From Thermoanaerobacterales bacterium (lineage in GTDB: Bacteria; Bacillota; Thermosediminibacteria; Thermosediminibacterales; Tepidanaerobacteraceae), in NCBI GenBank assembly GCA_012840135.1, contig DUMA01000005.1:1-64000 (forward strand): a stretch of 64,000 nucleotides of DNA, in the 5' to 3' direction. Of this stretch, positions 9,143 to 55,833 are shown one piece after another. The notes beneath the pieces are model-generated. The model had not been told where the DNA came from. It worked only from the letters and a program-made list of their open reading frames with translations, and made no database searches. Each line of letters begins with the position of its first letter. Position 1 is the first letter of the stretch. The position numbers were made by a program, and so were the translations under genes.

Positions 9143-11073
9143 ATGATTGAAGATGTGATTGTCCAGAGGTTGCCTTTAAATCAGAATAATTTCATATTGG
9201 TATATGACCCTGACGATTTGATGGCCGGGGAAAAGATTGTATCCCGGATAAATAGCTGCGGTTACACCCTCATTAATTATGAAGACCCGGATGTGTTCAG
9301 GTTTTATTTCGAACAAATTTTAAATAAAGGTACGGATATCGATGAAACAGGCGGGGATAAGATTATACTGAGGCTTACACGAAATACGTATGTACCTTAC
9401 GATATTCAGTCCATATTTCAGGAAATAAGGATAACCATAAAAGACATCTTTCCCGGGCTGAGCTACACTGTTTTAAAGGAAATGGGCAGCGGCATTTTAA
9501 ATGATGTATACGATGCTTATAAAAATTACACGGGTCTGAATCTGGACGACGGCGAAACCATAGATTTCATTCTTGAAAACATCTACGGCATATTTCCGGA
9601 TACCATACACACATACGAAGATTTGATAAAAACATTGATAAAAATATATTACTGCGGGAAAGAGTTGCCTGAAATCATCCTGAATTACCTTTCAAAGAGA
9701 TTCGAGACACATCCGGATTTTATAAGCTTCCCCGTTAAAAAAATTTTATCCGGAAAACAATCCTTCTTTTATTATTTACAGCAGCAATGGGAACTTTATA
9801 TAAAATCTTTTTTTGAAAATAATATCAGATCCGATGTGAATTTTGGCCATGCGGATATCAGAGTGTATATGGACAACCTTTTTTCCGAAGGGTATTTGAC
9901 CCCCGTCCATTGCCATGAAATCCAGAGGATTCCAGTTTGGGCCCGGGATGGGGTAATCTATCAAGAGTTTCTCGATAAAAAGAAGAACTATGAAGAATTG
10001 ATGGAAAAGGTCAGGACGTCCTTGGAAAAGGTGGAATCTTTTAAAGATTGGTGGGGCATAGCTTCCCGGGGGCTGAATTACTGGTGATAGTAAGTGACAG
10101 CAATATAAAAAAGGAGTTGGATCTTAAGGAGTTTGAAAAAACTTCTTTACATCTGGAAAGGTGTTTTAAGGAGTGGCTTCTGGAAAATTACGGTTTGCTT
10201 TCGTCTTTATCGTATACGGCTTTTCCAGTGATGGTACATCATATTACCTGGCACATCCATTACAGGATGCAAAAAGAAAACTTTAAAAAAGCGGCCCTCA
10301 TAGTATTTGACGGCATGTCTCTGGACAACTGGATAATAATAAAAAGGCATCTGAATCAGAGTAAGATATGGATACTGGAGGAGAACCTATCTTTTGCATG
10401 GATCCCAACCATGACCTATATATCGCGCCAGGCCATCTTTTCGGGGCAGGTGCCGGCGTACTTTGCCGATACGTTTTTTTCTACGGATAACGATGAAAAT
10501 CACTGGAAGAGATTCTGGATGGATAAGGGCTTTCGGGCAGATAGCATATATTACATGAGAAATATAAAGCATTTTGACGAAAACGGCCTTGAAGAACTGG
10601 TCAAAAACCCGAAAGCCAGAATACTGGGATTGGTAGTAAACATGATAGATGACTTGGCACACGGCGGACAGCTGCTGCTTTCGGGGATGCATCAGGACAT
10701 AAAACTTTGGCTCAAAGAAGGGGGACTGGAGCGCTTTTTGCTGAAGCTTTCCGCCGGCGGATATGAAATATATATAACCTCGGACCATGGAAACATCAGC
10801 GCCGTATGCCAGGGCAGGATTCAGGAAGGCCTGGGTGTGGATCAGGCGGAAAGCAGGGTCAGAATATACGAAAAATCCAAAAGCCATGATAGCGCCCTTC
10901 AAACATTTAAAGCCTTTAAATGGAAAGGCTATGGCTTGCCCCCGGATTATAATTATATCATCTGCGATGATAACTTCGCTTACGGCAAATATAACGAAAA
11001 AATAATATGTCATGGCGGAACATCCATTGAGGAAGTCATTGTTCCATTCGTCCATGTAAGAAAAGGAGCATAA
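9143..11073 (+). pseudogene. pglZ: BREX type 3 PglZ (alkaline-phosphatase superfamily), frameshifted
   Basis: Two overlapping frames (9143-10087 and 10048-11073) together make a PglZ of about 640 aa, normal for BREX-3. The first frame starts with an IEDVIVQRLP..DPDDLM N-terminus. The second carries the metal-binding motifs AALIVFDGMSLDNW and IYITSDHGN. The break is at the G5 run near 10068-10072: adding one G there restores a continuous IASRGAELLVIVSDSN reading. This can be a real mutation, a sequencing error or a slippage site. PglZ is a core component of every BREX type. The helicase gene normally next to it is absent. An artefact would leave pglZ intact, but the locus would still lack other core genes. 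Confidence 0.82.
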
Positions 11074-11074
11074 C

Positions 11075-11782
11075 ATGATGCAGACAGTGGAGTTTAATCG
11101 ATTCATAAAAAGAGAATGGCTGGATTTCACGGCTTTTCTTGCAGGTCGGGAAAAAGATGAAAAAATAATAAGGGAGAAGCTATATGGATACCTTGAAAAG
11201 GAAACAAAAGCCGAAATCACCCGCCAGAAAACCCTGGCGGAGCTTTTAAGGATCTGGGTAAACGTGCCCGCATCTCATGAGAATCTGAAGCAAAAGGCTC
11301 TAGATTTGTTTGAGAAAGTGCCGGAAGATGAGAAAATGTTACTTCACTGGTCGATGATAATGCTGGCATTCCCCATATTTATCGATGTGGCATCATCATT
11401 AGGAAAGATTTTCAGCCTTCAGGACCGGGTGTCTTTAAAAATCCTGGAAAAGCGCATATTTGAAAAGTGGGGAGAAAGGAGCACCGTAAAATACGCCCTT
11501 CCAAAGATAGTAGGCTCCATGGTCGAATGGGGCGTCATCACCAGGACAAAGGTAGGAGAGTACACTAAAGCCCAGGCTATAGAGATTGAAAAACAGGATT
11601 GTAAACTCTTTTTCATAAACTGCTATATGAAAGCTTTGGAGAAAGATTATCTAAGATTCATTGAAGCAAACAACCTCTCCGCCGCCTTTCCTTTTAAACT
11701 GAACCTGGGGCTTGATGACTTTAATAATTCAAATACCCTGACATTGAGCAGGATGGGAAGTGATGTGGTGATCACTGCTTAA
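11075..11782 (+). CDS. BrxA-like (DUF1819-like) protein of the BREX locus
   Basis: A 235-aa protein, no membrane segment, starting 1 nt after the pglZ stop with its own AAGGAG, so it was translationally linked. The C-terminal half (LEKRIFEKWGERSTVKYALP, then KIVGSMVEWGVI) has the helix-turn-helix-like layout of BrxA proteins, which bind DNA and stand at a BREX operon end. The match is by position and pattern, not by a clear signature, so the name is tentative. It looks intact, unlike the other BREX genes here. Confidence 0.55.
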   Translation: MMQTVEFNRFIKREWLDFTAFLAGREKDEKIIREKLYGYLEKETKAEITRQKTLAELLRIWVNVPASHENLKQKALDLFEKVPEDEKMLLHWSMIMLAFPIFIDVASSLGKIFSLQDRVSLKILEKRIFEKWGERSTVKYALPKIVGSMVEWGVITRTKVGEYTKAQAIEIEKQDCKLFFINCYMKALEKDYLRFIEANNLSAAFPFKLNLGLDDFNNSNTLTLSRMGSDVVITA

Positions 11783-42834: not shown

Positions 42835-44514
42835 ATGTTCAAAAAAAGCCTTGTGTTATTAATTGTAATGTTGCTTGTAGTTACGACTCTTGCTGGTTGC
42901 GGCCAAAAACCTGCCCAGCAAAGCGGCAGTGAGCAACAGCAGCAGGAACAGCAGCCTGCAGCGGAAGCGCCCAAAAATATACTGAGAATGGCGATTATGT
43001 CTAACCCGCCTAAACTTGATCCCGTATTTGCTACAGATACATCTTCTTCAAGAATAATTTACCAGATATTTGAGACTCTGGTGGATTACGATAAAGACGG
43101 CAATGTACAGCCCCTGCTGGCTGAGTCCTGGGATATTTCACCCGACAAGAAGACATATACGTTCCATTTAAGAAAGGGAGTTCATTTCCACAAAACCATT
43201 GAGGGCAAGCCCACCGCCAACGGCGGCCGCGAGGTAAAAGCCGACGACTGGGTATGGACGTTCAATTATATTTTAAACCCCGATACAGCTTCTCCCAGGG
43301 CGTACTTCCTGGATATGATTAAAGGATACAAGGACTACCAGGATAAAAAGACGGATCATATCGCGGGTATTTCGAAGGTCGACGATTACACCCTGAAGAT
43401 TGAAATAGACTATCCCTTTGCACCCTTCCTCAGCGTTCTCGCTTACAACACCTTTAACGTTCTTCCAAAAGAAGACGTTGAAAAATACGGCAAGGAGCAG
43501 TTCAATTTCCATCCTGTAGGGACGGGTCCCTTCAAGTTTGAACAGTGGGTGCAGGACGACAAAATTGTCCTTTCCAAAAATGAAGACTACTGGAAGAAGG
43601 ATAAAGATGGAAACCAATTGCCATATTTAGACGGTCTGGAATTCAGGATAGTAACCGACCTTGCCATGGAATGGACCGAGTTTGGCCTCGGCAACTTTGA
43701 GCAGATCGAAGAAGTAGACGATCCGTATTATGCCGATGCCAAGAAATTGCCCGGCTTTCAGGAAGGACCTACGCTCGGAACGTATTATTATGGTTTTAAC
43801 CTCACAAAAGCGCCTTTCAAAGGCAACAAAGCTCTCCGCCAGGCTTTTAACTACGCCATCGACCGCAAAGGTCTGATCGATATGGTGAGAAACGGCCGGG
43901 CGTTACCCGCCACCGGTGTGCTGCCTCCGGGAATGATGGGCTATGATGAAAGCATACAGCCTCAGTATACCTTCGATCCCGAAAAAGCCAAGGCCCTCAT
44001 GAAGGAAGCAGGCTACCCAAACGGTTTGAAGGTCGAACTGGTATACAACACCAGCGAAGGTCACAAGAGAATAGCAGAAGCTCTGCAATCCCAATTCAAG
44101 AACGTTGGAATCGATGTTTCATTAAAGAACATCGACTGGGGCGCCCTTCTTGACGCTACCGACAAATTGGAGATTCCGTTCTTTAGAATGGGCTGGGTGG
44201 CAGACTATCCGGATCCCGATAACTTCCTTTATGTGTTATTGAATTCTGCAAACATCGGCCCCAAAGGAAATTACTCCGGGTTTAACAACAAAGAATTCGA
44301 CGATCTAACAAACCAGGCCAGAGTCGAAACCGATCCCGCCAAACGGGCAGAGCTTTATAAGAAAGCCGAAAGCATTGCTCGGGAAGAGGCACCATGGCTG
44401 TTTATTTACCACTATACAACCCATTCTCTGACACAGCCTTATGTCAAGAATGTTGTACTTCCGTTCTTTGGTGAGTACTCTATGAAGTACACCGAAGTAA
44501 AGATGGAAAAATAA
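42835..44514 (+). CDS. Oligopeptide/dipeptide ABC transporter substrate-binding lipoprotein
   Basis: 559-aa family 5 solute-binding protein. Signal peptide with lipobox TLAGC (Cys at about 22), a Q/E-rich linker, then the SBP_bac_5 fold: RMAIMSNPPKLDPVFATDTS, PLLAESWDISPDKKTYTFHL, FNFHPVGTGPFKFEQW and RQAFNYAIDRKGLIDMVRNG. It captures peptides or related solutes outside the membrane for the four downstream proteins. A longer spacer (80 nt) before the permease gene is usual for high binding-protein yield. Confidence 0.94.
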   Translation: MFKKSLVLLIVMLLVVTTLAGCGQKPAQQSGSEQQQQEQQPAAEAPKNILRMAIMSNPPKLDPVFATDTSSSRIIYQIFETLVDYDKDGNVQPLLAESWDISPDKKTYTFHLRKGVHFHKTIEGKPTANGGREVKADDWVWTFNYILNPDTASPRAYFLDMIKGYKDYQDKKTDHIAGISKVDDYTLKIEIDYPFAPFLSVLAYNTFNVLPKEDVEKYGKEQFNFHPVGTGPFKFEQWVQDDKIVLSKNEDYWKKDKDGNQLPYLDGLEFRIVTDLAMEWTEFGLGNFEQIEEVDDPYYADAKKLPGFQEGPTLGTYYYGFNLTKAPFKGNKALRQAFNYAIDRKGLIDMVRNGRALPATGVLPPGMMGYDESIQPQYTFDPEKAKALMKEAGYPNGLKVELVYNTSEGHKRIAEALQSQFKNVGIDVSLKNIDWGALLDATDKLEIPFFRMGWVADYPDPDNFLYVLLNSANIGPKGNYSGFNNKEFDDLTNQARVETDPAKRAELYKKAESIAREEAPWLFIYHYTTHSLTQPYVKNVVLPFFGEYSMKYTEVKMEK

Positions 44515-44594
44515 TAAGAAATATTTATGCCTGGTTTCTGCTCATTGAGGGAGGCCAGGCATAATATGATGTACAGCTCGGGGAGGGGGAAAGT

Positions 44595-45521
44595 TTGTTA
44601 AACTATATTATAAGGCGGTTGATAGGAGCTATTCCGGTAGTTCTGGGCGTCATAGCCGTTGTATTTATTCTTACCACCATTGTACCCGGTGATCCAGCCC
44701 GTATCATGGTAGGCCAGAGAGGAGATCCGGCTACCATAGAAAAAATAAGGCATGAAATGGGCCTTGATAAACCTCTTGCAGTCCAGTTTGTGGATTTCAT
44801 GAAAAACGCGCTGACCTTTAATCTGGGTAAATCATATAGAAACAACATGACGGTAGTTCAGGCTTTATTAATACGATTGCCTGTTACAATAAAACTGGCT
44901 TTTGCTTCTATGGTCGTTGCTATTATTGTGGGAGTTCCACTGGGTATTATTTCTGCTGTGAAACAGTATTCATGGTTTGATTACGGAGCCATGTTTTTCG
45001 CCATCTTGGGAATATCCGCACCGGTGTTCTGGGTTGCGCTGCTGTCAGTAGTGCTTTTTTGCGTTATTCTCGGGTGGATTCCGGGCACCGGTACTGGCAA
45101 TGGTGAATGGATATATTACGTCCTGCCATCGGTAGTTTTAGGTTTGCGTCCGGGGGCTCTGATCGCAAGACTTACCCGCTCCAGTATGCTGGAGATAATA
45201 AGGCAGGATTTTATCAGAACAGCAAGGGCAAAGGGACTTGCCGAAAAGGTCGTTATTATGAAGCACGCTTTGAGGAATGCCCTTATCCCTGTGGTTACCA
45301 TTATCGGCATTGAAACCGCGGGCCTTTTGAGCGGTGTTGTAGTTACCGAATACATTTTTTCACTGCCGGGTATAGGAAGATTGAGTGTAGAAGCGCTGGT
45401 AAACCGTGATTTTCCGGTAATCAGGGGTGTTGTATTGTTTATGGCCTTCCTCTTCGTATTAGCCAACCTTATAGTAGATCTTTCTTATCCGTTTTTTGAT
45501 CCGAGAATAAAATATGACTGA
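44595..45521 (+). CDS. Oligopeptide/dipeptide ABC transporter permease, DppB-like
   Basis: 308 aa, about six membrane segments. N-terminal YIIRRLIGAIPVVLGVIAVV, GDPARIMVGQRG and the EAA loop (IRTARAKGLAEKVVIMKHAL) are typical of DppB/OppB. It begins at TTG 44595 after GGGGAGGGGG. The next gene's possible upstream start touches its stop. Confidence 0.94.
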   Translation: MLNYIIRRLIGAIPVVLGVIAVVFILTTIVPGDPARIMVGQRGDPATIEKIRHEMGLDKPLAVQFVDFMKNALTFNLGKSYRNNMTVVQALLIRLPVTIKLAFASMVVAIIVGVPLGIISAVKQYSWFDYGAMFFAILGISAPVFWVALLSVVLFCVILGWIPGTGTGNGEWIYYVLPSVVLGLRPGALIARLTRSSMLEIIRQDFIRTARAKGLAEKVVIMKHALRNALIPVVTIIGIETAGLLSGVVVTEYIFSLPGIGRLSVEALVNRDFPVIRGVVLFMAFLFVLANLIVDLSYPFFDPRIKYD

Positions 45522-45535
45522 TGGGAGGGGAAGCA

Positions 45536-46456
45536 ATGGAAGCTAAAACTGAAATAAAAAATATAGCTCCTGGTAGAGCAAAAAGGAAAATCGAAGGTCG
45601 AAGCCTTTGGATGGATGCATGGCTTCGTTTAAGGAAAAATAAATCTGCCATGTTTGGCATGACGCTGGTAATCATAATATGCCTTGCAGCTATTTTTGCA
45701 CCGTATATTACCCGGTATGATCCTTATGATCAGCTCATATGGAAGGAAGGAGCTTCCGCAAAACTTGCTCCTCCCAGCGCAGCTCACTGGTTTGGCACCG
45801 ATGTATACGGCAGGGATATATATACCAGGGTAGTTTATGGTGCAAGGATTTCTCTGCAGATAGGATTTGCTGCTACAGGTATATCGGTGATAATTGGAGT
45901 GATACTGGGAAGCCTGGCTGGGTATTACGGTGGATTCATAGATGATATAATAAGCTGGCTGACCAATGTCATATTCGCATTCCCGTTTTTGCTTTTCGTG
46001 CTGGCACTGGTGGCATACCTTCCCCCCAGCCTTCCGCTCATGTATATGTCCATAGGCATCATATCCTGGGCATCTTTTGCCAGGGTTGCCCGGGGTCAGG
46101 TGATACAGGTAAAAGGTATGGAATATGTGGAGGCAGCTACGGCCGTGGGGGGCGGCGATGGAAGAATTATTTTCAAGCATATACTGCCCAACATACTGGC
46201 ACCGATTATAGTTCAGGCCACCCTTGAAGTGGGGAGCATTATAATGCTGGAGTCATCCCTAAGCTTTCTGGGGTTTGGAGTTCAGCCACCAAAACCGGCA
46301 TGGGGATATATGATTAATGAAGGCAGGCAATTCTTCCTTTCGGGCCAGTGGTGGTGGTCGGTGTTTCCGGGGATTGCCATAATGGCGCTGGTTTTGGGTT
46401 TCAATCTTTTCGGCGACGGTCTGAGGGATGCTCTTGATCCCCGACTAAAACAGTAG
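45536..46456 (+). CDS. Oligopeptide/dipeptide ABC transporter permease, DppC-like
   Basis: 306 aa, about six membrane segments, with an N-terminal OppC_N segment (WLRLRKNKSAMFGMTLVIII), WFGTDVYGRDIYTRVVYGAR and the EAA loop (YVEAATAVGGGDGRIIFKHI). ATG 45536 is chosen because GGGAGGGG lies just before it; the in-frame ATG at 45521 sits upstream of that site. Confidence 0.94.
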   Translation: MEAKTEIKNIAPGRAKRKIEGRSLWMDAWLRLRKNKSAMFGMTLVIIICLAAIFAPYITRYDPYDQLIWKEGASAKLAPPSAAHWFGTDVYGRDIYTRVVYGARISLQIGFAATGISVIIGVILGSLAGYYGGFIDDIISWLTNVIFAFPFLLFVLALVAYLPPSLPLMYMSIGIISWASFARVARGQVIQVKGMEYVEAATAVGGGDGRIIFKHILPNILAPIIVQATLEVGSIIMLESSLSFLGFGVQPPKPAWGYMINEGRQFFLSGQWWWSVFPGIAIMALVLGFNLFGDGLRDALDPRLKQ

Positions 46457-46468
46457 GGAGGTAGAAAG

Positions 46469-47458
46469 ATGAGTGATATACTGGTAGAAGTAAAAAATCT
46501 AAAAACTTACTTTTTTACGGATGATGGAGTGGTCCCGGCTGTAGACGGAGTAGATTTTTGCATCAAAAAAGGGGAGACTCTCGGAATAGTTGGGGAATCG
46601 GGCTGCGGAAAGAGTGTTACATCCCTGTCCCTGTTGAGACTCGTACCCAATCCACCGGGGAAAATTGTAGATGGTGAAATGTATTTTAAAGGGGAAAACC
46701 TTCTTGAAAAATCTGAAAGCGAGATGCGCAAAATTCGCGGAAACGATATATCCATGATATTTCAGGAGCCCATGACATCTTTAAATCCGGTATTTACCGT
46801 CGGCGAGCAGATAAGCGAAGCTATAGAACTTCATCAGGGTTTGAATAAAAGAGATGCTATGGCAAAAGCCGTTGAGATGCTTAAACTCGTAGGCATACCT
46901 TCAGCGGAACGGAGGGTGCACGAGTATCCCCACCAGATGAGCGGAGGCATGAGGCAGAGGGTGATGATAGCCATGGCGCTTTCCTGCAATCCGGCTCTCC
47001 TTATAGCCGATGAGCCCACCACCGCTCTGGATGTTACCATCCAGGCCCAGATTCTCGAGCTCATGAAGGATTTGAAAGAAAGGCTGGGAACAGCCATAAT
47101 GCTCATAACCCATGATCTGGGTGTCGTGGCCGAGATGGCGGAAAACGTACTGGTCATGTATGCAGGTAAAGTGGTGGAATATGCCGATGTAAAGACCATT
47201 TTCAAAAATCCTAAACACCCCTATACGGTGGGCCTATTGGGTTCAATTCCAAGACTGGACCAGCCCAGGGAGAAACTTTATGTAATCGAAGGTGTGGTAC
47301 CAAACCCCTTTAATATGCCATCGGGGTGCCGGTTCCATCCACGATGCCCTGATGTCCGGGAAATTTGCAGGACGAAAGAACCCGACTTATTGCATATCGA
47401 TGGACAGCAGGTGCGGTGCTGGAAATACACCGATGAGTGGAAAGGAGGCGGCAGGTAA
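46469..47458 (+). CDS. Oligopeptide/dipeptide ABC transporter ATPase, DppD-like
   Basis: 329 aa. Walker [11 protein letters not shown]-loop [10 protein letters not shown], signature [15 protein letters not shown], Walker [13 protein letters not shown], switch His in LITHDLGVV. The C-terminal oligo_HPY region carries the cysteine set [10 protein letters not shown] that can bind an iron-sulfur cluster in this family. Its stop overlaps the next ATG by one base (TAATG). Confidence 0.95.
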
Positions 47459-48432
47459 TGATGAAGAATCAGGAAAAATTACTGGAAGTTAAGGGAGTAA
47501 AAAAATACTTTCCCATAAAGGGCGGTATTTTACAGAAGACCGTAGGTTATGTTAAAGCCGTTGATGGGGTGGATATGTTCATAAAGCGGGGTGAAACCCT
47601 GGGCCTTGTAGGTGAAAGCGGATGCGGAAAATCCACGCTCGGCAGAGTTATTCTAAGGTTGCTTGATGCTACCGAGGGTGAAATCAATTACGGCGGCAAA
47701 AATATATTGAAGCTAAAAAAAGAGCAAATGCGGGAAATGAGAAAGAAAATGCAGATAATTTTCCAAGACCCTTATGCTTCTTTAAATCCGAGGATGACAA
47801 TAGGCGACATAGTGGGAGAGCCCATGGATATTTTTAACCTGGCAAAGGGTCAGGAAAAGGAAGAAAAGGTCCTGGAGCTTTTACACGTAGTCGGACTGGG
47901 AACCCAGCATATCAGGAGGTATCCCCACGAATTTTCTGGCGGACAGCGTCAGAGGATAGGGATAGCCCGGGCGCTGGCCGTAGACCCGGAACTCATCATA
48001 TGTGACGAGCCCGTTTCCGCCCTTGATGTTTCGGTAAGGTCCCAGGTGTTGAACCTTATGCAGGAATTGCAGGAAAAATTTAGCCTTACTTATCTGTTCA
48101 TATCTCACGATTTGAGCGTGGTAAAGCACATCAGCGACAGGGTTTCTGTGATGTATCTGGGCAAAGTGGTGGAGATTGCAGAGAAAAACGAGCTGTATGA
48201 TAAACCACTGCACCCGTACACCCGGGCGCTTCTTTCAGCCATCCCCATTCCGGACCCGGAAGTAAAGAGGGAGCGAATAATCCTGGAAGGAGATGTGCCG
48301 AGCCCGGTGAATCCGCCCAGCGGCTGCCATTTCAATACCCGGTGCAAGTATGCAAAACTGGAATGCAGCAAGATAGAGCCTCAGTTAAAGGACGTAGGCA
48401 GCGAACATTTTGTGGCATGTCATCTGTTTTAG
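47458..48432 (+). CDS. Oligopeptide/dipeptide ABC transporter ATPase, DppF-like
   Basis: 324 aa. Walker [15 protein letters not shown]-loop [12 protein letters not shown], signature [15 protein letters not shown], Walker [13 protein letters not shown], switch His in FISHDLSVV. The C-terminal [14 protein letters not shown] element matches the oligo_HPY cysteine motif. ATG 47458 overlaps the dppD-like stop and is preceded by AAAGGAGG. It completes the five-gene transporter. Confidence 0.95.
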
Positions 48433-50045: not shown

Positions 50046-50171
50046 AATATACATTATTCTACAAAAAAAAAAGTTTCACGGGAAATAATTTATTTTCAGC
50101 AAAAGCAAAAATATTTTGCACCTGTTTGCACCTTTTGCAGTTTTTGGAAAGCTCATGCCGGGGGTGGGAAT

Positions 50172-51590
50172 GTGCCGGGACAGCATGATTTAAAAAAAAT
50201 ACTGTCACTGGAAATAATAAAAAACATTTTTGATACTCTGGATGAGGGAATTCTGATAGTGGACCGTGAATGCCGCATTATGTTTTATAACAGGACTCTT
50301 TCGCACTTCGAGGGCCTGGATGCAGACATGGTGCTTGGCAGAACAATATTTGAGGTATTCCCTTCGATAACGACTGAAGAAAGCACCCTTTATCAGGTGG
50401 TTAAGAATGGAAAGCCGATTAAAGGGAGATTTCAACAGTACTTTAACTATAAGGGAAAGCAGATAAAGACTGTGAATACCACAATACCCATTACCGACAT
50501 GGGCCACATAATCGGTGCGCTGGAAGTATCCAGGGATATATCGGTTATCCTTGACCTCAGTGAAAAAGTCGTCGACCTTCAGCAAGGCTTTGGACGTAAA
50601 TCAGCCAGAACAAGAAATGTAGGGTTAAAATACAATTTTGACAACATTATTGGGAAAAGCGAAGGAATTCAGGATATAATCGGGATATTGAAAAAAGCGT
50701 CACAGACCACTTCTTCAATTTTACTTTACGGTGAGACGGGAACTGGCAAGGAGCTTTTTGCTCAGAGCATCCACAATGCCAGCCCCAGAAAGAATATGCC
50801 ATTTATAGCACAAAACTGCGCTACTCTGCCGGAAAGCATCCTTGAAGGGATTCTTTTCGGTACAACCAGGGGCAGTTTTACAGGAGCTGTGGATAAGCCG
50901 GGACTCTTTGAGCAGGCGGATGGAGGAACCATCCTTCTTGATGAGATAAACAACATGGGACCTGCTCTTCAGACAAAACTGCTGAGGGTGCTTCAGGAGG
51001 GGGTTATCCGGCGCCTCGGAGATGTGACGGATATCCCTGTAGATGTGAGGATTATTGCCACCACCAACGAAAGGCCTTCAGAACTTTTAGAAAGCGGGAG
51101 GCTAAAGCAAGATCTTTTTTACAGGCTCAGCGTGATATATGTGGAAATTCCGCCTCTCAGGGAAAGGCGGGAGGATATATGGGACCTCACGCATTATTTT
51201 ATTAGAAAATATAACGAGAAATTTAATAAAAATATTTCGGGCATCCATGAAGATGTTGTAAAAATATTCCAGGAATACAAATGGCCCGGAAATGTGCGGG
51301 AACTAGAGCATGTTATTGAAGCACTCATGAATTATGTGGATGAGGGCCAGATTAAAAGGGAGCACCTCAGATTTTTAAGTTTTGGGGCTTTTAAGAATTA
51401 TGTCGAAAAAGAAACCCCTGATTTTACAGGGGTACAGTTTAAAAAAAGAACTTTTGATTATGAAAAGAATCTAATCATTGAAGCTATAAAAAGTACCCGG
51501 GGGAATATTACTAAAGCCGCACAAAAGATGGGCATGAAAAGACAATTGTTGCAGTATTACATGAAAAAATACGGGATAAGGCGCTTATAA
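50172..51590 (+). CDS. Sigma-54-dependent transcriptional activator, PAS-AAA-Fis (RocR/PrdR-like)
   Basis: 472 aa. A PAS domain at about 15-120 (ILIVDRECRIMFYNRTLSHF) should sense a metabolite. The AAA+ domain at about 155-390 has GETGTGKELFAQSI, GSFTGAVDKPG, GGTILLDEINNMG and the R-finger region. The sigma-54-contacting loop reads GSFTGA instead of GAFTGA. A Fis-type helix-turn-helix ends the protein (GNITKAAQKMGMKRQLLQYY). It starts at GTG 50172. Two strong -24/-12 sites lie 1.4 kb away between the next divergent genes, which are its obvious targets. Confidence 0.93.
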   Translation: MPGQHDLKKILSLEIIKNIFDTLDEGILIVDRECRIMFYNRTLSHFEGLDADMVLGRTIFEVFPSITTEESTLYQVVKNGKPIKGRFQQYFNYKGKQIKTVNTTIPITDMGHIIGALEVSRDISVILDLSEKVVDLQQGFGRKSARTRNVGLKYNFDNIIGKSEGIQDIIGILKKASQTTSSILLYGETGTGKELFAQSIHNASPRKNMPFIAQNCATLPESILEGILFGTTRGSFTGAVDKPGLFEQADGGTILLDEINNMGPALQTKLLRVLQEGVIRRLGDVTDIPVDVRIIATTNERPSELLESGRLKQDLFYRLSVIYVEIPPLRERREDIWDLTHYFIRKYNEKFNKNISGIHEDVVKIFQEYKWPGNVRELEHVIEALMNYVDEGQIKREHLRFLSFGAFKNYVEKETPDFTGVQFKKRTFDYEKNLIIEAIKSTRGNITKAAQKMGMKRQLLQYYMKKYGIRRL

Positions 51591-52901
51591 CTCAAGATTT
51601 TTTAATACATCGGCTAAGGTCGGAAGCCCTATTTCCTGAAGACTGTATCTTACACGAACAATAGGTTTGTTCGGCTTTATTACCCTGGTCAGGTCTATGG
51701 GTGTGCCTGAGACTACTATGTCACAATCTATCCGGTTAATGGTTTCTTCCAGTTCCTGCATCTGCTTTTCGCCATAGCCCATGGCGGGCAATACAGTGGA
51801 AAGATGAGCGTATTTCTTGTAAGTGTCCTTTATGCTGCCTGTGGCGTAAGGCCTTGCATCAACTATTTCGCGGGCGCCGAATTTTTTGGCAGCCATGTAA
51901 CCTGCACCGAAGGTCATACCTCCGTGGGTGAGTGTTGGGCCATCCTCAATTACCAAAACTCTTTTACCGCAGATTTTTTCGGGTTCTGCCACAAAAATAG
52001 GTGATGCCGCTTCAATAACGATGGCTTCAGGATTGACGTTTTCGATGTTTTCCCTGACTTTATTTATATCATCAATATTTGCTGTATCGATTTTATTTAT
52101 GATGACTATGTGGGCCATTCGAAGGTTAGTCTCTCCGGGGTGGTAATTCAGCTCATGACCTGGCCTGTGGGGATCTACTACGACGATATGCAAGTCTGAA
52201 AAATAGAAAGGAAAGTCGTTATTGCCGCCATCCCATACAATGACATCGGCTTCCTTTTCAGCCTCTGCCAGTATTTTCTCGTAGTCTACGCCGGCATATA
52301 CGACGATGCCGTCATCTATATGAGGTTCGTATTCTTCCCTTTCCTCTATGGTACAATTATGAAAATCCAAGTCTTCATAGGAAGCGAATCGCTGGCAGAC
52401 CTGTTTTTCCAGGTCGCCGTACGGCATCGGATGCCTTATGGCTACCACTCTTTTGCCCATATCCTTCAATATTCGGCATACTTTTCTGGTGGTCTGGCTC
52501 TTTCCTGCTCCCGTCCGGGCAGCACAGACTGAAATCACCGTTTTTGAAGATTTTAAACATGTATTTTTGGGCCCCATAAGGCGAAAATCGGCACCGGAGC
52601 TAAGTACTATGGACGCCTTATGCATTATATCTTCATGGGAAATATCGCTGTAAGCAAAAACTACCTGTTTTACATTCTTTTCTCTTATTAGTTCTTCAAG
52701 TTCGGTTTCGGGGTAAATAGAAATGCCATTAGGATAGAGTCCACCGGCAAGAGAGGGAGGATATTTTCTGCCCTCTATATTTGGAATTTGGTTGGCTGTA
52801 AAAGCCACTACCTCGTATGAATCATTGTCTCTGAAATAAGTGTTGAAAACATGAAAATCTCTACCTGCAGCACCCATAATGATTGTTTTGATTCTTTCCA
52901 A
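51585..52901 (-). CDS. Cyclic 2,3-diphosphoglycerate synthase-like P-loop GTPase
   Basis: 438 aa. An N-terminal Rossmann-like domain (TIIMGAAGRDFHVFNTYFRD) is followed by a P-loop NTPase domain with VCAARTGAGKSQTTRKV (Walker A), DVIVWDGGNNDFPF and VVVDPHRPGHE. It matches bacterial proteins annotated cyclic 2,3-diphosphoglycerate synthase, which often sit in purine or ornithine degradation clusters; the real substrate is uncertain. TTG 52901 is the start because GGGAGG lies just before it on the minus strand; the longer ORF lacks such a site and would run past the sigma-54 promoter. The 3' end overlaps the activator gene by 6 nt. Confidence 0.82.
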   Translation of the reverse strand: MERIKTIIMGAAGRDFHVFNTYFRDNDSYEVVAFTANQIPNIEGRKYPPSLAGGLYPNGISIYPETELEELIREKNVKQVVFAYSDISHEDIMHKASIVLSSGADFRLMGPKNTCLKSSKTVISVCAARTGAGKSQTTRKVCRILKDMGKRVVAIRHPMPYGDLEKQVCQRFASYEDLDFHNCTIEEREEYEPHIDDGIVVYAGVDYEKILAEAEKEADVIVWDGGNNDFPFYFSDLHIVVVDPHRPGHELNYHPGETNLRMAHIVIINKIDTANIDDINKVRENIENVNPEAIVIEAASPIFVAEPEKICGKRVLVIEDGPTLTHGGMTFGAGYMAAKKFGAREIVDARPYATGSIKDTYKKYAHLSTVLPAMGYGEKQMQELEETINRIDCDIVVSGTPIDLTRVIKPNKPIVRVRYSLQEIGLPTLADVLKNLEL

Positions 52902-52935: not shown

Positions 52936-52951
52936 TGCAAAAATTGTGCCA
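52936..52951 (-). promoter_or_regulatory. Sigma-54 promoter (minus strand)
   Basis: Read on the minus strand the site is TGGCACAATTTTTGCA, matching the -24/-12 consensus TGGCAC-N5-TTGCA exactly. It ends 35 bp upstream of the TTG start of the GTPase gene. Confidence 0.9.
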
Positions 52952-53060
52952 TATTTAATGTGCTGTGTTTTTTGTATATACTGCAAAAAATATTTGCATA
53001 TGATCTATTCAAAAAAACCTGATTGATAGAACTGCTGCATTTTTTTAATTAATGATTCCA

Positions 53061-53076
53061 TGGTACAAAAATTGCA
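53061..53076 (+). promoter_or_regulatory. Sigma-54 promoter (plus strand)
   Basis: TGGTACAAAAATTGCA matches the -24/-12 consensus at all but one informative position. It lies 21 bp before the ATG of the racemase-like gene and 110 bp from the divergent site. Confidence 0.88.
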
Positions 53077-53097: not shown

Positions 53098-54165
53098 ATG
53101 ACCTATCCTGTAGTGGAAATCTATATCGATAGAATCCGGTACAATGCAGGTTGTCTGGTGGATTTTTGTTCAAAAAACGGTATCGAGGTCATGGGAATCT
53201 CAAAAGGAGCATGTGCCATGGCTCCGGTGGTTAAGGCCATGCTGCAGGCAGGGATAAAAAAACTTGGAGACTCCAGACTTCAGAACATTATTTCCATGAG
53301 ACAAAATGGTATAAACTGTCCCATTTACCTCATAAGGATTCCCATGCTCTCAGAAATAGATAATGTCGTGCGGTGGGCCGACGGAAGCCTGAACTCGGAA
53401 ATAGATGTAATAAAGGCTCTTTCTCAGGAATCCATGATTCAGGGGAAAAAACACAGGGTGATTCTTATGGTGGATGTAGGAGATTTGAGAGAAGGGGTTA
53501 TGCCTGAAGATGTGCTGAATGTGGCAGGAATGATTCTGGAATTGCCTGGAGTAGAATTTGAAGGTCTCGGCACCAACCTGGGATGTTTTGGAGGCGTTCT
53601 GCCGAGTTTTGAGAATACAAAGATTCTGGCAGAACTGGCAGGTGACATAGAAAAAAGATATGGTATAAAAGTACAAACTCTTTCGGGAGGAAATACGGCA
53701 ACTCTGACACTTTTGGAAAAAGGAAAGCTTGCGCCGGGGATAAACCAGTTCAGGATAGGGGAGGCAATACTGCTGGGCACCGATGCAACTAATTTCAGAA
53801 GAGTTCCCGGAACCTTACAGGATACCATGATACTTAAGACCGAAGTAATAGAGGTAAAAATAAAACCTTCATATCCCAGAGGAGAGATAGGCCGGGATGC
53901 CTTTGGGAATACTCCGACCCATGTGGACAAAGGACCCATGAAAAGGGCAATAGTAGCTCTTGGAAAACAGGATTGCAGGATCGAAGGATTAGTTCCGGTG
54001 GATGAAAACATTGAAATACTGGGGGGCAGCAGCGACCATCTGCTGGTGGATGTGACAAAGAGCGTAAATAACATAAAGGTAGGTTCCATCATCGAATTTC
54101 GCATGTCCTATGGTGCCATGCTGAGCCTAATGACATCGAAATATGTGGAAAAGAAAATAGTATAG
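53098..54165 (+). CDS. PLP-dependent alanine/ornithine racemase-family enzyme
   Basis: 355 aa of the fold III (alanine-racemase N-terminal) type. VVEIYIDRIRYNAGCLVDFC and MGISKGACAMAPVVKAMLQA place the PLP lysine near residue 40. RVILMVDVGDLREGVMPEDV, GLGTNLGCFGG and SGGNTATLTLL are typical of the ornithine-racemase group, which makes D-ornithine for oxidative/reductive ornithine fermentation. ATG 53098 is set by GGAGG (53085-53089). Transcribed from the sigma-54 promoter upstream, together with the next gene. Confidence 0.82.
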   Translation: MTYPVVEIYIDRIRYNAGCLVDFCSKNGIEVMGISKGACAMAPVVKAMLQAGIKKLGDSRLQNIISMRQNGINCPIYLIRIPMLSEIDNVVRWADGSLNSEIDVIKALSQESMIQGKKHRVILMVDVGDLREGVMPEDVLNVAGMILELPGVEFEGLGTNLGCFGGVLPSFENTKILAELAGDIEKRYGIKVQTLSGGNTATLTLLEKGKLAPGINQFRIGEAILLGTDATNFRRVPGTLQDTMILKTEVIEVKIKPSYPRGEIGRDAFGNTPTHVDKGPMKRAIVALGKQDCRIEGLVPVDENIEILGGSSDHLLVDVTKSVNNIKVGSIIEFRMSYGAMLSLMTSKYVEKKIV

Positions 54166-54189: not shown

Positions 54190-55833
54190 ATGCCGGATTT
54201 GGGTGAAAAAATAAAAAGGTTATCTATGGAGTTGACCCGAATTGCCAGCATTGTTGGAACCACGGGAGAAATAAGAGCGGCTGGGTATATATATGAATAT
54301 CTAAAAAAAGTGAACTATTTTGTACAAAATCCCGGGAATCTTCAACTGAAGGACCTTAAAAACGACCCTTTGAATAGAAAATATATCATGGCCTTTTTGG
54401 AAGGCAAAAAAACTTCTCCCAACACAATTTTGCTTCTTGGGCATATTGATACGGTTGGTGTGGATGATTATGGTGACCTTAAGGAATACGCTACAGAACC
54501 TGAAATATTAAAATCGATGCTGAGCAAAAAAAGTTTTGATGAAGAAATTAAATCTGATTTGAAGTCCGATAACTGGATTTTTAGCAGGGGAATTTTTGAT
54601 ATGAAGACCGGCGTGGCTTCCCAGATGGTTATGTTAGAAGAGTTTTCCAAACATCTTGAAAAACTACGGGGGAACCTTGTCTTTATCGGAGTGCCGGATG
54701 AAGAGGGAAATTCTTCAGGAATGCTCTCTGCTGTCCAGGATCTGGCCGAATTAACAAAGCAAAAGGGCTGGGAATTTATAGCAGCAATAGATACTGATTA
54801 CATGACCGGACAGTATGCCGGAGATGAAAAAAAATATGTATATGTTGGGACTGTTGGGAAACTTTTGCCATGTTTTTATGTGTACGGGAAGGAAACCCAT
54901 GTGGGGGAGGCCTTCAGCGGCCTTGACGCGAATTTGCTGGCATCGGAGCTAATTAAAGAGATAGATTTAAACTACGACCTTTGCGATGTAGCCGGTGGTG
55001 AGGCCACGCTTCCGCCTATAAGCCTCCACCAGCGGGACCTGAAGGCTGAGTATTCGGTACAGACGGTGAATGCTGTAAACCTGTATTTTAATTTTGCTAC
55101 ACACAAAAGCCAGCCTGATGAAGTTCTGGAGAAATTGAAACAAAAAGCTATAAGGGCCTTTGACAATACCATAAAAAGGCTCAATGAAAACTACAAGAAG
55201 TACTGTGAGCTGAGCGGAATACCGTTTAAAAAACTTCCGTGGCAGTCAAAGGTTTTGACCTTTGAAGAACTATACAAAAATGTTAAAGATGAAGCTGGAA
55301 ATGAATTTGAAGGTAAGTTCGAAGCACTAATCGATGAATTGCTGAAAAAAGGTGCCGATGACAGGGAATTTTCTCTGAGAGTGGTACAGGAAGTGCACAA
55401 GCATTATTCTGACAAAAACCCTATGATCATAATCTATTTTGCACCGCCCTTTTACCCGCACATTTTCGTAGAGGGTGAAAGCCCGAGAGAAGCGAAACTG
55501 CTGAGTGCTGTGGAAGAAGCTGTCGAAGAAGCAAGGGCAAAATCAAAATATGATATAGTAATTAAAAAATTCTATCCTTATATATCGGATTTGAGTTATT
55601 GCGGCATATCGAGAAACGAAGAGAGCATCAAAAAACTTGTGAATAATATGCCGGCATGGCCGAAAAAATATTCATTGCCGGTAGAAGCAATACAACAGAT
55701 AAACATGCCGGTATTGAACATAGGTCCCTATGGAAGAGATGCCCATAAACTGACGGAAAGATTAAGCCAATCCTATTCGTTCGACACCATGCCCTTTATT
55801 TTGGAAAAAACCATAGAAAGGCTATTAAATTAA
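54190..55833 (+). CDS. M20-family peptidase, RocB-like
   Basis: 547 aa. The M20 metal-site motifs are visible: LLLGHIDTVGVDDYG (about residue 79), RGIFDMKTGVASQMVM (about 136) and GVPDEEGNSSGM (about 168), with a large lid domain. RocB of Bacillus lies in the sigma-L/RocR-controlled arginine catabolism operon, though its reaction is unclear. It follows the racemase gene by 24 bp behind AGAGGAGG and shares its promoter. Confidence 0.85.
   Translation: MPDLGEKIKRLSMELTRIASIVGTTGEIRAAGYIYEYLKKVNYFVQNPGNLQLKDLKNDPLNRKYIMAFLEGKKTSPNTILLLGHIDTVGVDDYGDLKEYATEPEILKSMLSKKSFDEEIKSDLKSDNWIFSRGIFDMKTGVASQMVMLEEFSKHLEKLRGNLVFIGVPDEEGNSSGMLSAVQDLAELTKQKGWEFIAAIDTDYMTGQYAGDEKKYVYVGTVGKLLPCFYVYGKETHVGEAFSGLDANLLASELIKEIDLNYDLCDVAGGEATLPPISLHQRDLKAEYSVQTVNAVNLYFNFATHKSQPDEVLEKLKQKAIRAFDNTIKRLNENYKKYCELSGIPFKKLPWQSKVLTFEELYKNVKDEAGNEFEGKFEALIDELLKKGADDREFSLRVVQEVHKHYSDKNPMIIIYFAPPFYPHIFVEGESPREAKLLSAVEEAVEEARAKSKYDIVIKKFYPYISDLSYCGISRNEESIKKLVNNMPAWPKKYSLPVEAIQQINMPVLNIGPYGRDAHKLTERLSQSYSFDTMPFILEKTIERLLN

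Follow-up and report, generated by a model that had tools for sequence, protein, structure and literature searches.

Three described systems come closest to the locus analysed here. In Clostridiales, OrdR stands for a sigma-54 regulon of ornithine catabolism comprising ord-ortBA-oraSEF-orr-nhaC (PMC6615313, PMC7438776). In Bacillus subtilis, RocR is described as belonging to a SigL regulon of arginine degradation (PMC4813224, PMC4348106), in which the control of RocR over its own gene is negative (PMC4813224). In the sox locus of Bacillus thuringiensis, one site of SoxR serves two sigma-54 promoters and also the regulator's own promoter (PMC4941409).

The window, i.e. the whole stretch of 64,000 nucleotides under analysis, probably contains a regulon of this ordinary, known type, and it is the target of the regulon that is informative. 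Two -24/-12 elements, TGGCACAATTTTTGCA at 52936-52951 on the minus strand and TGGTACAAAAATTGCA at 53061-53076 on the plus strand, are separated by 109 bases. The first faces the gene of a GTPase-like protein of 438 amino acids (51588-52901, minus strand, TTG start), which on the basis of a structure model, a profile and motifs is predicted to have the fold of cyclic-2,3-diphosphoglycerate synthetase (cPGS). The second faces the genes of an Orr-type (ornithine) racemase (53098-54165, plus strand) and of an M20 family hydrolase (54190-55833, plus strand; PF01546, 45.5 bits), the latter 24 bp behind the racemase gene. We take the hydrolase to be RocB-like, a name given by the first, sequence-only reading of this DNA. 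That reading had also placed a sigma-54 activator next door, and indeed a gene at 50172-51590 (plus strand), one gene away from the divergent region and convergent with the GTPase gene, encodes a protein with the order PAS - AAA+ - Fis HTH (PF00158, 201.5 bits; PAS; HTH_8), the probable regulator of both promoters.

We read the locus as a compact sigma-54 regulon in which the neighbouring activator would act through one dyad on two divergent promoters and would also regulate its own gene, and give this reading a probability of roughly 0.7. Promoters, dyads, conservation, fold and gene neighbourhoods were all obtained by sequence comparison. From these we infer that the activator would bind a 15-bp dyad, GCAAA-N5-TTTGC, located at 52983-52997 between the two promoters, and that it would, with hydrolysis of ATP, open both of them, the GTPase-like gene and the racemase and RocB-like genes thereby being expressed together. 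A second copy of the dyad at 50105-50119, 53-67 bp upstream of the activator gene, is a candidate autoregulation site and suggests that the activator may also control its own gene. The inducer would probably be a basic amino acid of the arginine/ornithine group. What is new here is the dyad between the promoters together with its copy upstream of the activator gene.

Like the OrdR system, the locus has a sigma-54 promoter preceding genes one of which encodes a likely ornithine racemase, and an adjoining activator with the same domain plan. Unlike in that system, the targets are the GTPase-like gene, the racemase gene and the RocB-like gene, no oraE is present, and the activator forms a branch of its own in the tree, separate from the activators adjoining ora operons (support 1.000), with which it shares 38-44% identity in the HTH region. 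The GCAAA dyad is absent from the ora locus of Acetoanaerobium noterae, and no dyad within one mismatch was found upstream of the activators adjoining ora operons (0/5). Membership of the OrdR regulon is rejected on two tested features, the missing oraE and an activator that does not group with the ora-linked ones. With RocR, the locus shares sigma-54 promoters, an activator with upstream sites, a rocB-type target and a regulator that may control its own gene, but the targets here are a racemase and the GTPase-like gene, not rocA/rocD. The analogy with SoxR lies in one candidate activator site for two sigma-54 promoters combined with possible own-gene control, whereas the pathway of SoxR is that of sarcosine and the sequence of its site is different.

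Judged from their sequence, both -24/-12 elements are very probably real, correctly placed sigma-54 promoters. They are exact (TGGCAC-N5-TTGCA on the GTPase side, TGGTAC-N5-TTGCA on the racemase side) with intact GG and GC dinucleotides, and each lies upstream of a start codon, the distance from the end of the element being 34 nt to the TTG of the GTPase-like gene and 21 nt to the ATG of the racemase gene. The pattern TGGYAC-N5-TTGCW has no other exact match in the window. When up to one mismatch was allowed, the window alone gave six sites versus 3.25 expected, a weak signal with 11 of 100 shuffles reaching six. Genome-wide, the exact pattern was strongly enriched, with 19 sites versus 2 for the reversed-pattern control, and by our own reading of these matches an open reading frame of at least 150 amino acids begins within 150 nt downstream of 16 of the 19. 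The genome encodes rpoN (sigma-54; PF04552, 209.7 bits), and a simple scan for sigma-70 promoters found none in the intergenic region and fewer than expected overall. A chance pair of motifs is rejected on the strength of the genome-wide enrichment together with the conservation in relatives described below. The back-to-back elements proposed from the sequence alone are thus confirmed in position and strand, as are the genes that they were said to face.

The GTPase-like protein has relatives in 120 of the 398 genomes of the phylum (E <= 0.001), mostly as full-length matches, and is 65-77% identical to proteins of Chloroflexota, Thermotogota, Thermococcus and Asgard archaea, among others. We take the family to be COG2403, a designation that was not mentioned in the literature searched, which likewise contained no paper joining diphosphoglycerate synthetase with ornithine. 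The predicted structure (pLDDT 92.7) matched cPGS (PDB 8oru/8ork/9sxb) with Z 21.7 over 355 residues and an rmsd of 11.7, LpxK with Z 19.2 over 281 residues (rmsd 3.4), HypB with Z 16.8 over 182 residues (rmsd 2.9), and UreG with Z 15.4. Profile similarity to cPGS extended over about 110 residues (E 9e-11), and the identity to cPGS was 14-18%. The motifs RTGxGKS and DGGNND were found in all 94 family members compared, and NKxD in 65 of them.

According to the model, the protein shares with cPGS a two-domain fold over its full length. In cPGS a K-R pair contacts the substrate (PMC10690619). In the GTPase-like protein, T-G takes the place of this pair, the residues ahead of the P-loop lysine being AARTGAGKS as against GTGKRVGKT in 9sxb in a weak alignment anchored on the P-loop. 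Because of this replacement, and because the family has conserved motifs of its own, the protein, which has the cPGS fold, very probably does not perform the cPGS reaction, and a true cyclic-diphosphoglycerate synthetase is unsupported.

The gene neighbourhoods point to the pathway in which the protein may act. Across 94 neighbourhoods of the family (the window and 93 others), in which a gene was counted if it lay within three genes of the GTPase-like gene, there were 20 with ornithine carbamoyltransferase (OTC), 12 with carbamate kinase and 31 with an arginine/ornithine gene of any kind; with the window and its nearest relatives left out, the last figure was 29/82. The neighbourhoods include arginine-biosynthesis runs (argC, argJ, argB, argD, argF) as well as ornithine-degradation operons (OrtB, OraE, Or-4, Orr, AmmeMemoRadiSam proteins, carbamate kinase, OTC). 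In 80 named loci the same distance covered argS in 34, OTC in 10, carbamate kinase in 9 and any arginine/ornithine gene in 50, the argS adjacency perhaps representing a single event since nearly all of these loci come from Anaerolineae and other Chloroflexota. In the thermophile Coprothermobacter platensis (L205), the GTPase, OTC and carbamate kinase genes adjoin one another. Over the 398 genomes, and uncorrected for relatedness, carbamate kinase was found in 73/115 genomes with the GTPase versus 86/283 without it, and an orr-like racemase in 51/115 versus 45/283. These comparisons support a link of the family to arginine and ornithine that is independent of this window and extends over several phyla.

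In different phyla, then, the family travels with argF, arcC, argCJBD, argS or ornithine-degradation genes, and the search for a substrate is narrowed to arginine, ornithine, citrulline or carbamoyl phosphate. Most likely the GTPase-like protein is an NTP-dependent enzyme, which would act as a kinase or ligase, using a P-loop of the LpxK/cPGS fold, at the ornithine/citrulline/carbamoyl-phosphate node. This is the most economical guess, and its rival is a chaperone of the G-protein type. In that account, which we consider somewhat unlikely, a SIMIBI-type G protein (HypB/UreG/MeaB-like) would aid a partner enzyme of arginine/ornithine metabolism, in line with the structural matches to HypB and UreG and with the NKxD motif in the majority of members. 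However, the whole-length match is better to cPGS and LpxK, both of which are kinases, NKxD is missing from 29 of the 94 members, and the neighbourhoods share no single partner enzyme.

Returning to the NTP-dependent enzyme, we propose tentatively, and at less than even odds, that the family constitutes a conserved and so far undescribed enzyme at the ornithine/arginine/carbamoyl-phosphate node, the induction of which would be revealed by the present regulon under an undescribed group of activators with a GCAAA-N5-TTTGC site. Regulatory evidence is hereby added to a strong neighbourhood signal for an ancient and highly conserved family without known function. The probable joint induction of the GTPase-like protein and a likely ornithine racemase gives a clue to the job of the former, and the defined DNA site, the regulator and the promoter pair provide a handle for finding the inducer.

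To assess the conservation of this control, the regions upstream of the GTPase gene were compared in 18 loci, drawn from the order and from a single further genome of the class, after two loci truncated at contig ends had been left out. A -24/-12 element was present in 12 of the 18, lying 50-72 bp ahead of the gene start. An orthologue of the window's activator (at least 63% identity) was encoded in 11 of these 12 loci and in none of the six lacking the element. The 12 loci are related, nine of them belonging to one family, and the counts over them are therefore not independent. In the sister genome G341 both divergent elements and the dyad are kept despite a longer intergenic region, the racemase-side element TGGTATAAAAATTGCT occupying the equivalent position. 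On the other hand, six genomes of the same family (G201, G298, G398, G399, G404, G400) keep the GTPase without any of the promoter, dyad or activator, which counts against the regulon reading.

The interval between 52951 and 53061, singled out in the sequence-only reading as the place for shared upstream activating sequences, does hold a candidate, the dyad at 52983-52997. It is kept beside the GTPase promoter in all 12 promoter-bearing loci (perfect in 11, with one mismatch in one), and within one mismatch it was found in none of the six GTPase loci that lack the element. A first-order Markov model predicts 0.0003-0.002 perfect dyads for the intergenic stretch. The genome as a whole has seven dyad sites versus one for the reversed control, two of the seven being the copies described above, at 52983-52997 and 50105-50119. 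Of all 19 exact promoter matches in the genome, the pair in the window is alone in having a dyad within about 300 bp upstream. One dyad at the GTPase gene paired with one at the activator gene is also seen in G341, G250 and G037. Of the 11 loci that have this activator, 5 show a perfect dyad ahead of the activator gene and one shows a copy with a single mismatch; the absence of the dyad from the other five counts against the regulon reading.

On the GTPase side, the distances from the dyad centre to the -24 position in the 12 loci are 39, 40, 50, 50, 50, 52, 92, 51, 51, 39, 52 and 52 bp. On the racemase side the distance is 71 bp in the window and, calculated from positions, 135 bp in G341. 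As a post hoc remark, these distances seem to fall near one helical phase at a 10.5-bp turn. The racemase promoter of another locus (L325), which is under a different activator, has a distance of 75 bp and is out of phase. With 39 bp in the window, the dyad is much nearer the -24 position than are most Clostridiales activator sites, for which 100-250 bp upstream is given (PMC6615313), and this too counts against the regulon reading. The conserved promoters, the shared dyad and the dyad upstream of the activator gene lend good support, at the level of sequence, to the divergent shared regulon claimed at the outset.

The dyad and promoter data also bear on the possibility, which we regard as unlikely, that this activator controls the GTPase promoter alone, and that the racemase and RocB-like genes are neighbours by history whose promoter is used either by chance or by a different activator. 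In sister genera (L313, L318) the racemase occurs without the GTPase or an intact activator, in one family it heads an ora operon with a different activator, the racemase-side element scores 16.9 versus 20.5 for the GTPase-side element, and the divergent GTPase and racemase genes of L311 are without any sigma-54 element. Against this reading stand G341, in which both elements and the dyad have survived a change in intergenic length, and the RocB-like genes that adjoin this activator in the other family too. Quite unlikely is the service of both promoters by another activator, with the dyad as the site of an unrelated regulator: the genome does encode about 27 activator-type AAA+ proteins (30 matches, the last three weak), an abundance that also counts against the regulon reading, and has five more dyads elsewhere, but the orthologue of the window's activator goes with promoter and dyad in all but one of the loci that have them and with none of those that do not, and a dyad precedes its own gene in 6 of 11 loci.

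With the compact regulon thus preferred, the metabolic setting in this organism can be considered. The racemase scores 440.4 bits against NF040742, for which the curated cut-off is 480; this cut-off is passed in only 5 of the 398 genomes, and racemases inside the ora operons of relatives score 450-470. The window's racemase is 60-72% identical to the latter and, from its sequence, likely an ornithine racemase. No ornithine aminomutase OraE over the cut-off was found in the genome or in the single-contig sister genome, and for carbamate kinase the genome gave nothing beyond one weak match. The lack of oraE and of a clear carbamate kinase counts against the regulon reading. Plain Stickland ornithine oxidation in this organism is rejected because of the absence of oraE, OraE being the enzyme that defines that pathway. 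The proposed tie between the GTPase and ornithine metabolism therefore stands in part. It is upheld by arginine/ornithine neighbourhoods in several phyla and by co-occurrence with arcC and orr-like genes over the 398 genomes. Ornithine as substrate or signal at this locus does not receive the same backing, given the absent OraE and the placement of the activator apart from those linked to ornithine degradation.

Some further observations concern the related loci. As in the window, L311 (positions 2-2505, genome G398) has the genes of the GTPase-like protein and of the racemase pointing away from each other, with about 180 bp between them. Sigma-54 elements, dyad and activator are absent between or beside the two genes on this short contig, so the pairing of GTPase and racemase exists without the regulation. 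In L318 (G176) the racemase gene is adjoined at 10549-11112 (minus strand) by a remnant of a sigma-54 activator of 187 amino acids, in which the AAA+ core is missing and the start of the PAS domain runs on in frame into the C-terminal lid and HTH; the element TGGAACGAATTTTGCA is still located in front of the racemase. L313 (8278-15448, G399) retains a block of genes in the order DUF1015 - racemase - NADH dehydrogenase - ApbE-like - Rex, some of these gene names being presumed. Between DUF1015 and the dehydrogenase it has neither an activator gene nor genes for a GTPase or a RocB-like protein; in the window, all three are located inside this block.

The dyad sequence GCAAAACATTTTTGC occurs in both sister genomes, at G000:C51:44437-44451 and at G341:C1:168826-168840, the copy in G000 lying about 300 bp downstream of the AAA+ domain of another activator. 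Plasmid-borne homologues of RocB and of the activator had no informative neighbours. In the Anaerolineae and other Chloroflexota (L192-L250) the GTPase-like gene follows that of arginyl-tRNA synthetase and often precedes obg and a cytidylyltransferase-like gene. AmmeMemoRadiSam genes (a radical SAM enzyme and a Memo-AMMECR1 fusion) are found within ornithine-degradation operons, for example in L043, L046, L051 and L098, where they are near carbamate kinase, OTC and the GTPase-like gene. Finally, a transporter operon at 42835-48432 (plus strand) of the window, which we take to encode a peptide-type ABC transporter, stops a few hundred bases short of the DUF1015 gene.
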